In this document: piece after piece, positions 1,841-4,386 of the stretch | How the letters are laid out: each line of letters starts with the position of its first letter | How positions within the stretch are numbered: the stretch's first letter is position 1 | Virus record (IMG/VR): IMGVR_UViG_3300027771_000083 | Span: 1-26,483 of that record | Reading direction: 5' to 3' (one strand) | DNA from: a virus | Length of the DNA stretch: 26,483 nt | Notes under the pieces: generated by a model | Databases searched by the model: none | What the model was told of the DNA's origin: nothing | Seen by the model: only the letters and a program-made list of their open reading frames with translations | Translations under genes and position numbers: made by a program

Positions 1841-1879
1841 TAGTCCCGACAAGGGTAAGCCCTACTTTGTAGGCAGCGC

Positions 1880-1967
1880 AAATCACTGATGAGAATCGGC
1901 GCTATATAAGTAAGATTCGAAACCCCCTACCTCTCACTTTAAGTGGTAGTAGCTGGGGGTATGGTTT
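1880..1967 (+). ncRNA. Type I hammerhead self-cleaving ribozyme
   Basis: All core elements of a hammerhead occur in order. CTGATGA (1886-1892) is followed by stem II GAATC/GATTC (1893-1897 with 1914-1918, a G-C pair next to the core), then GAAA (1919-1922). Stem III is A1922-T1960 plus five C-G pairs (1923-1927 with 1955-1959) and an inner CACT/AGTG hairpin. The cleavage triplet is GTA, with the cut predicted after A1961. Stem I (1880-1885 with 1962-1967) has six pairs including one G-T wobble. Because stem I is the open helix, this is type I. Every invariant core position of the family is met. Activity is predicted from sequence, not shown. It lies 3' of promoter P2, and cutting would free the downstream structured RNA with a new 5' end at T1962. 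Confidence 0.87.
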
Positions 1968-1970
1968 TTA

Positions 1971-2132
1971 GTGGTTTGCACTAAGAGACAGACGAATAAC
2001 CGGAGTAATCATATAATACCGGTTAGCCATAAGATGTGGCCTTATATGTATCCTAGGTACACGGGAGAAACAACAGTATACACGGGTGCCCTATGGGGTA
2101 TCTAGGGAAGGTCTGTCTCTTAGGGAAACCAC
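1971..2132 (+). ncRNA. Candidate structured RNA closed by a 7+13 bp stem
   Basis: CTAAGAGACAGAC (1981-1993) is perfectly complementary to 2111-2123. Outside it, GTGGTTT (1971-1977) pairs with AAACCAC (2126-2132), leaving a small internal loop (GCA opposite GG). Inside lie a seven-pair hairpin TAACCGG/CCGGTTA (1997-2003 with 2019-2025), a GCCA/TGGC hairpin (2026-2040) that competes with ATAAG/CTTAT, an 8-base direct repeat TACACGGG (2058-2065, 2079-2086) and a TGCCC/GGGTA hairpin near 2087-2100. No open frame or Shine-Dalgarno site explains it. The closing stem begins ten bases after the predicted hammerhead cut. I do not recognise the class; a multi-branched phage non-coding RNA is the best reading. 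Confidence 0.6.
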
Positions 2133-2141
2133 CTAAGATTA

Positions 2142-2257: not shown

Positions 2258-2299
2258 GAAGATTATCTACCCTTAAATAAAAGATAATTGAAATAAGTG

Positions 2300-2327
2300 T
2301 TGACAGGGTTACCGGGTGTGATAAGAT
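2300..2327 (+). promoter_or_regulatory. Sigma70-type promoter
   Basis: Perfect -35 box TTGACA (2300-2305), 16-base spacer, and TAAGAT as the -10 box (2322-2327), preceded by TGTGA as in an extended -10. It lies 35 bases upstream of the small gene starting at 2362, so host polymerase could transcribe the following genes without the phage enzyme. Confidence 0.6.
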
Positions 2328-2361
2328 AACCCCACATTCAACGAAACAAGAGATAAAGATT

Positions 2362-2696: not shown

Positions 2697-3077
2697 ATGA
2701 GTGAAATACTGCGAAACATGATGCGCACACCTGATGGCACAATGCTGCATTCAGTCCATCGACACGACTTCAGAGAACATCAAGACGCTAACGGTAAAGT
2801 TTACATGTTGGATGGTGGTCTTGATTATGTTAGACATTCTGCCCACGGTGACGAAGATATGTTTACTCTTATGTCAGACGATAGCCATGAAGTTATTAGG
2901 GAAGTAGTAACGTGGGGAACATACGGCAGAGAAGGGGACCAGCTTATTACGCACGTTAAAATTGTTGATATGGACACAGAGCATTTACAAGCCTGTATAG
3001 ATGGGATGAGGCGCTACCCACGACCAGCCATGTACAAAGTAATGCAAGATGAACTGGATTATCGAAGAGAGGGCTAA
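2697..3077 (+). CDS. Conserved phage protein of unknown function, 126 residues
   Basis: The start is ATG 2697, eight bases after AAAAGGAG; a GTG directly before it is less likely. The protein resembles a group of short phage proteins that begin with a pattern like MSEILRxxMxTPDGT, followed by a HDF-x(n)-DANGKxYMxDGGxDYVR block (about residues 22-48), then a conserved VTWGTYGxxGDQ stretch (about 79-90). My recognition rests on that pattern only, and no biochemical role is known to me. It lacks a signal peptide and membrane segments and is rich in His, Asp and Met. It overlaps the longest possible upstream extension of the HNH gene, suggesting co-transcription with it. Confidence 0.85.
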   Translation: MSEILRNMMRTPDGTMLHSVHRHDFREHQDANGKVYMLDGGLDYVRHSAHGDEDMFTLMSDDSHEVIREVVTWGTYGREGDQLITHVKIVDMDTEHLQACIDGMRRYPRPAMYKVMQDELDYRREG

Positions 3078-3096
3078 ATTAATAGGGGTGTTTCGT

Positions 3097-3504
3097 ATGA
3101 TTTACAAATGCTCCAGATGTACAGAACCAGCAACAGTAGGCACCTTATGTGCCAAGCATACAGCCACCATGGCACTAGATGGGAAGCCACGCTACAGGGG
3201 CGCCCATAACCGCAACTTCTACGGTTCTGCTAGGTGGCGAGGTCTTAGGGAGCTGGTGCTATCACAACAGCCCTTATGTGCCTGTTGTAACCATTACGGC
3301 ACCACTAGGCCAGCAGCAGAGGTTGACCACATCTACCCTATCAGCCACAGCCCACAGCTATTAGCTACCCTTTCTAACATGCAAGGCTTATGCAAGGGGT
3401 GCCACAGTAGAAAGACCCAGCACGAGAAGCGGGGCGTGGTGTATGACTACCTGAAGCTAATCATCATTGACCTCAATACTGGGGCTGTAACAACACTTAA
3501 ATAA
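3097..3504 (+). CDS. HNH endonuclease
   Basis: HNH-family nuclease of 135 residues. An N-terminal zinc-ribbon-like CSRC-x(9)-CAKH (about residues 5-21) precedes the HNH core: CACC (about 77-80), EVDHIYPIS with the catalytic-type DH pair, then NMQGLCKGCHSRKT with the N, the second CxxC and the final His. Small HNH proteins next to terminase genes are common in HK97-type phages and in several cases are needed for DNA cleavage by terminase; that role is inferred here from its place 430 bases upstream of terS. I chose ATG 3097 (GGGGTG seven bases upstream) over the ATG at 3049, which would overlap the previous gene and has no ribosome binding site. Confidence 0.9.
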   Translation: MIYKCSRCTEPATVGTLCAKHTATMALDGKPRYRGAHNRNFYGSARWRGLRELVLSQQPLCACCNHYGTTRPAAEVDHIYPISHSPQLLATLSNMQGLCKGCHSRKTQHEKRGVVYDYLKLIIIDLNTGAVTTLK

Positions 3505-3936: not shown

Positions 3937-4386
3937 ATGGCAGGCGTAGCTGGAAAGTCCGGGGGAGGTAACCGGTTAATGAGCGTTATTAAACCACCAC
4001 CGACCAAAGTGAAAGGGAAGCTTGTTTCCCCGGACTGGTACATACTCGGGGAAACCAAGACCCTCGAAGAGATTCATAGTCACATTGCCAAAAAGCTTAA
4101 AAACGCAGGGGTCACCGAATCCATTGACTCAACCCTTGTCGCCTCTCTGGCCCAGCAGTACCAATTTCTACAGGATTGCTCCCTTGCTTATGCCACCGAT
4201 GGCCCTAGTGCCCTGATCGGTAGAGCGCTGGCTTCCCGGTTGATTGGTGAAGCTCACGCCGAGATTTATAAAATCTTAAAAGAATTCCAAGTAACACCCA
4301 GCACAAGAAACAAGGCCGAAGATTTGGCCGCCCCCGAGTCAACCGGTGATACCGCACTCGACAACTTATTTAACTTTACTCACTAA
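3937..4386 (+). CDS. terS: Terminase small subunit, P27-like
   Basis: Probable small terminase subunit (149 residues), which recognises phage DNA and hands it to the large subunit for packaging. The N terminus MAGVAGKSGGGNR matches the AGxxGKSGG start typical of P27-family small terminases, with a helical central part (about 45-125) as in that family. The C-terminal DTALDNLFNF segment may be the tail that contacts the large subunit (inferred). The start is firm: AAGGAG lies eight bases upstream. It sits ahead of terL, separated by three small genes, which is longer than usual for this pair. Confidence 0.85.
   Translation: MAGVAGKSGGGNRLMSVIKPPPTKVKGKLVSPDWYILGETKTLEEIHSHIAKKLKNAGVTESIDSTLVASLAQQYQFLQDCSLAYATDGPSALIGRALASRLIGEAHAEIYKILKEFQVTPSTRNKAEDLAAPESTGDTALDNLFNFTH

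Follow-up and report, generated by a model that had tools for sequence, protein, structure and literature searches.

Phage ribozymes and the element at 1880-1967

Self-cleaving RNAs of two classes have been connected with the processing of phage transcripts. Hammerhead ribozymes of prophages cut in vitro and in E. coli, and Perreault et al. proposed that hammerheads process long phage transcripts (PMC3088659). The theta ribozymes of gut phages, which are HDV-like and self-cleaving, process phage transcripts and are found next to tRNAs (PMC10879173).

In the case described here, from the IMG/VR record IMGVR_UViG_3300027771_000083 (positions 1 to 26,483; this whole stretch of 26,483 nucleotides is termed the window), the location makes the role of a phage hammerhead easy to test: the element lies directly behind putative polymerase promoters, where the late transcript is predicted to begin, and a conserved structured RNA follows the cut site. 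It is likely a genuine type I hammerhead behind tandem putative phage-polymerase promoters, where it would trim the leader of the late transcript.

The ribozyme occupies 1880-1967 on the plus strand; it was recognized by a descriptor and by covariance model R1 (described below), and is also present in a related contig, L002. Its elements follow in the order AAAUCA, CUGAUGA, GAAUC-loop-GAUUC, GAA, ACCCCC-loop-GGGGGU, A and UGGUUU. Stem I joins A1880-A1885 with U1962-U1967 (6 bp, one G-U), stem II joins GAATC 1893-1897 with GATTC 1914-1918 (5 bp), and stem III joins ACCCCC 1922-1927 with GGGGGT 1955-1960 (6 bp); stem I is open and stems II and III are hairpins, which is the type I layout. The core consists of CTGATGA (1886-1892), GAA (1919-1921) and A1961 as H17, with a GUA cleavage triplet. 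Under the core definition of PMC3088659, positions C3 U4 G5 A6 N7 G8 A9, G12 A13 A14, the pair A15.1-U16.1 (A1922-U1960) and H17 are all present, and the core-adjacent pairs A1885-U1962, G1893-C1918 and A1922-U1960 are free of mispairs. The preliminary description of this DNA, which had reported a full type I hammerhead, its elements in the right order and its stems 6, 5 and 6 pairs long, proved exact to the base, and the cut it predicted after A1961, that is between A1961 and U1962, agrees with the GUA triplet and the position of H17.

Just upstream of stem I, AGCGC at 1875-1879 (plus strand) could form five Watson-Crick pairs with GCGCU of loop II (G1899-U1903). This pairing of loop II with the 5' flank (5 bp; shuffle p 0.075, not significant) is no more than suggestive of the usual hammerhead pseudoknot, and no canonical 3'-flank pseudoknot was found for the window hammerhead.

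When both strands of the window were scanned with a descriptor, the site at 1880-1967 was the sole match. In first-order Markov sequence of matching composition (88.2 Mb), the same descriptor yielded four loose matches, none of which reached stems of 5/6/6 pairs. A control set was obtained by searching viral contigs with one narrow exact pattern, which returned 27 stretches, 25 of them from other phages; clear hammerheads are present in most of these 25 further contigs. Model R1 was trained on 22 other phage hammerheads and on no window sequence, and produced a single window match, of 30.5 bits (E 7.1e-8); the L002 site scored 30.6 bits. The element thereby stands out from chance and is recognized by a profile of other hammerheads. 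Covariation was seen among the 22 controls and is partly built in, because a pairing descriptor chose them.

A search with Rfam family cutoffs had been put forward in the preliminary description as a check, and a lack of any match above the cutoff as a refutation. No family matched anywhere in the window at gathering thresholds. In a narrower Rfam search the best sub-threshold match was RF03152 (RAGATH-1-hammerhead), at 17.3 bits against a cutoff of 56.3, with an alignment that spans the core, stem III and stem I in the same layout as the window element; RF00163 (Hammerhead_1) was not among the matches listed for the window, and by Rfam score the element is a member of neither family. This outcome is uninformative, as clear phage hammerheads fail in the same way: none of eight scanned loci with pattern-found phage hammerheads reached any Rfam hammerhead cutoff, and clear type I controls scored merely 18.8-28.7 bits. 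The missing match was therefore not counted against the ribozyme. Surveys at default cutoffs will miss many such elements, because clear type I hammerheads of phages fail the cutoffs of Rfam release 15.

Other ribozymes were met among the controls and relatives. On the minus strand of the phage contig L046, three hammerheads stand in a row (999-1061, 1784-1846 and 2072-2128): a type III element and two of type I, whose triplets are GUC and GUA. Two phage contigs contain Pistol ribozymes that pass the Rfam cutoff, L005 (698-759), which also has a related RNA polymerase, and L034 (5072-5136), which also has a hammerhead. A hammerhead-like element of L088 (about 3999-4056), apparently of type III and with one extra base before stem II, accompanies a related polymerase and was unscored by Rfam at E 0.5.

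Genomic setting and conservation of the leader

The record represents part of the genome of a long-tailed phage. The 3' part of a T7-like single-subunit RNA polymerase gene lies at 32-1612 on the plus strand (phrog_414, E 3.4e-85), its start being located before the window. In the overlapping contig L016 the complete polymerase has 709 aa, and its full ORF matches phrog_414 with E 6.2e-90; the polymerase matches T7 RNAP structures with E 6e-26. Besides the complete polymerase, L016 adds genes for a DNA polymerase, SSB, an exonuclease and a ribonucleotide reductase upstream, and terminase, portal, protease, capsid and tail genes follow downstream in the window, on the same strand as the upstream replication genes. 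An HNH endonuclease gene (3049-3504) precedes the small terminase gene (3937-4386), an arrangement common at cos-type packaging sites.

The polymerase gene, which ends at 1612, is followed on the plus strand by an intrinsic terminator-like hairpin with a T run (1634-1655, from scan and sequence), by the putative phage-polymerase promoter P1 (AGTTAAAACTACCCATTATAG, 1673-1693), by its second copy P2 (1813-1833, expected start G1833), by the ribozyme about 50 nt downstream of P2, and by the late genes. P1 and P2 are exact 21-nt copies at a spacing of 140 nt, and the repeat has only two copies in the window (up to three mismatches allowed) and only two in L016 also. The two copies resemble the T7 promoter; read from ACTACCCATTATAGAGAA, P2 matches its consensus at 14 of 18 positions. 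The hammerhead had been placed in the preliminary description between the polymerase gene and its promoters, which was wrong; it lies downstream of both P1 and P2, and transcripts from P1, from P2 and from host read-through of the terminator would therefore all be cut. Directly behind the leader, scanning and repetition identify a host sigma70-type promoter (2292-2330, plus strand; TTGACA 2300-2305, TAAGAT 2322-2327). Its sequence AATAAGTGTTGACAGGGTTACCGGGT has seven identical copies (window 2292-2317; L016 7625, 7896, 8352, 8717, 9084, 9482, 13044), each followed by a -10-like hexamer, and these appear to be repeated early promoters of host type.

The following scheme for cleavage, promoter function and the effect on mRNA is drawn from sequence, base pairs, statistics, position and conservation in one relative. 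P1 and P2 probably serve the T7-like RNA polymerase of the phage in transcribing the late genes. Transcripts from either promoter, or from host read-through of the polymerase gene, would cut themselves between A1961 and U1962, releasing a 5' RNA of 129 nt from P2 or 269 nt from P1 that ends in a 2',3'-cyclic phosphate. The late-gene mRNA would then begin uniformly with a 5'-OH, and a stable structured RNA would start six to eight bases further on; this structure near the 5' end may shield the late transcript from decay. Release of a defined RNA through cuts on both sides was also considered and was dropped, because Rfam at E 10 gave no second ribozyme near the leader.

Conservation of the leader is judged from two independent sequences, the window and L002. 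Contig L001 is identical to the window in the overlap and probably represents the same phage; the leader is otherwise present in a single independent sequence, L002, which is 97.4% identical. L002 retains the ribozyme: stems I and II are unchanged, and stem III, with one G missing from its 3' strand, still has 5 bp. The loss from close relatives with conserved flanks that the preliminary description would have held against a ribozyme is not observed in this one relative. Over the leader (1649-2318) the two sequences show four differences, with about 21 expected from the neighbouring rate (3.2% divergence in the polymerase gene, 3.9% after 2318), and no base differs over 1956-2318; recombination could be an alternative cause of this local identity. 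Two of the four leader differences, G1855 to A and C1860 to T, count as a single event and keep a pair in a small plus-strand hairpin upstream of the ribozyme (AGGG-UAAG-CCCU, 1852-1863). Beyond 2318 there are 16 differences, 7 of which cluster at 2319-2332, where the host promoter that follows the leader has its -10 region.

BLAST searches of phage records with the leader or with the first 20 kb gave no close relative, and exact patterns for the promoter, for the promoter plus core and for the downstream RNA recovered the ribozyme leader, among viral contigs, only in the window phage and L002. Three extra promoter-plus-core matches (L129-L131) held no ribozyme by descriptor or model and were discarded. 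The polymerase was searched for in genome contigs and was not found there. The terminase relatives L021 and L022 (81%) begin 549 nt before the terminase, which places the leader out of their reach.

Competing helices and alternative readings

The surroundings of the ribozyme contain two new features, a 12-bp helix that was overlooked in the preliminary description and a downstream arm that could displace it. The 5' strand of this anti-ribozyme helix, GCAAAUCACUGA (1878-1889, plus strand), covers stem I and C3-A6 of the core and forms 12 continuous pairs with the 3' strand, UUAGUGGUUUGC (1968-1979, plus strand), which belongs to the left arm of the downstream structure as well. The helix has p 0.00025 against random 30-nt flanks and is contained in the minimum-energy fold. 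On its downstream side, the arms 1968-1993 and 2111-2136, a 26-nt inverted repeat with 81% complementarity, close a structured RNA with inner hairpins (1968-2136, plus strand), and the fold of 1962-2260 has a z of -6.17. Folding indicates a second long hairpin at 2140-2226 on the same strand; a role as intrinsic terminator was dropped for it, as it has no T run.

Three pairings are mutually exclusive: stem I (1880-1885 with 1962-1967), the anti-ribozyme helix (1878-1889 with 1968-1979) and the downstream arm (1968-1993 with 2111-2136). Constrained folding from 1833 put the ribozyme fold above the free ensemble by 4-5 kcal/mol when the transcript ends at 1967-1976, by 9-10 kcal/mol once 1979 is transcribed (ends 1980-2126) and by 5.3-5.5 kcal/mol for ends at 2132-2136; the absolute values of this penalty mean little, as the secondary-structure model omits hammerhead tertiary energy. 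The same penalty is 0.4-5.9 kcal/mol in other phage hammerheads (0.4-5.2 kcal/mol with a 20-nt tail), and the window is an outlier among them because of the 12-bp helix. No competing strand differs between the window and L002, save for one G in stem III.

In this folding model the helix and its displacing arm suggest timed or regulated cutting. The helix would exclude the ribozyme fold and the arm 2111-2136 could remove the 3' strand of the helix, so that cutting would probably either take place very fast, during transcription, or follow a timing set by the exchange of helix and arm. The helix may delay cutting, set up a race with transcription, or hold the products until the arm displaces the 5' product, and the arm may also serve the release of that product. 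Should the competing helices matter, this would be a natural hammerhead timed by co-transcriptional refolding.

The alternative that survives best is a regulated or timed switch, a possible though doubtful account, by which the anti-ribozyme helix would turn the ribozyme off once 1968-1979 has been made, and formation of the downstream junction, or its binding by a ligand or protein, would take that strand away and re-enable it; cutting would then depend on the extent or speed of transcription. The use of the same bases in three exclusive pairings, the rise and subsequent fall of the modelled penalty, and the strands kept in L002 are consistent with such control. Its evidence comes from a folding model that leaves out tertiary energy, however, and the helix may be without function, for instance where cutting outpaces transcription. 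The specific form of a three-state hammerhead switch heading the late transcript, with cleavage timed by transcription or gated by a binder of the downstream junction, is rather unlikely.

By analogy with T7, the leader might instead be a primary replication origin, with the leader RNA as primer or origin RNA that the ribozyme removes or trims. The T7 primary origin has the same order, two tandem promoters after the RNA polymerase gene; replication genes lie upstream, and GC falls to about 0.30-0.36 at 2150-2350. The 2',3'-cyclic phosphate left by a hammerhead cannot prime without repair, however, and this role is improbable. A further alternative is a decayed hammerhead, in which the 12-bp helix and the downstream structure matter and the core no longer cuts: the minimum-energy fold is the anti-ribozyme fold and Rfam gives no match, yet the core and all three stems are intact in both the window and L002, chance recurrence of the complete descriptor is negligible, and decay would be expected to cost core bases; such a relic is improbable. 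A chance resemblance in a structured leader, with no ribozyme at all, is strongly disfavoured, since the lack of an Rfam family at gathering threshold is outweighed by the simulation, by the E value of R1 and by the failure of Rfam on clear control hammerheads.

Comparison with other phage ribozymes

A genuine hammerhead trimming the late leader, the reading preferred here, can be set beside the ribozymes of phages with related polymerases. Such polymerases were collected from 105 distinct contigs or loci, which were not all tested alike; in the 80 loci covered by R1 (L049-L128), L050 and L058 alone gave clear type I hammerheads, and a hammerhead of type III in L098 is suggested by Rfam. All three precede the polymerase gene by 2-4 kb, on its strand and among small genes, whereas that of the window lies behind the putative polymerase promoters; L058 shares the GUA triplet with it. 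An apparent match just behind the polymerase of L115, without stems II and III and in coding-looking sequence, was rejected. A search for phrog_414 in the 25 hammerhead contigs gave no matches, and the control of that search also gave none. The claim that such a ribozyme is uncommon is tempered by the 25 further phage contigs and by the phages with related polymerases; it stands for the position in a leader directly behind putative polymerase promoters, which was found only in the window phage and L002.

The theta ribozymes (PMC10879173) resemble the window element in self-cleavage that processes, or here would process, transcripts; they belong to a different class and are tRNA-adjacent, whereas no tRNA genes were found in the window. 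From the hammerheads of the type described in PMC3088659 the element differs by a loop II of 16 nt, by GUA in place of the usual GUC, and by its place in a leader behind putative polymerase promoters with a strong competing helix. Its stem III arm, counted from GAAA to U16.1, has 41 nt, against 15-21 nt in the other type I examples retrieved. With these phage and prophage type I hammerheads (PMC3088659) it shares the invariant core, the A15.1-U16.1 pair, the closed stems II and III and the open stem I, and it also shares with them an intergenic phage site and a proposed part in transcript processing.
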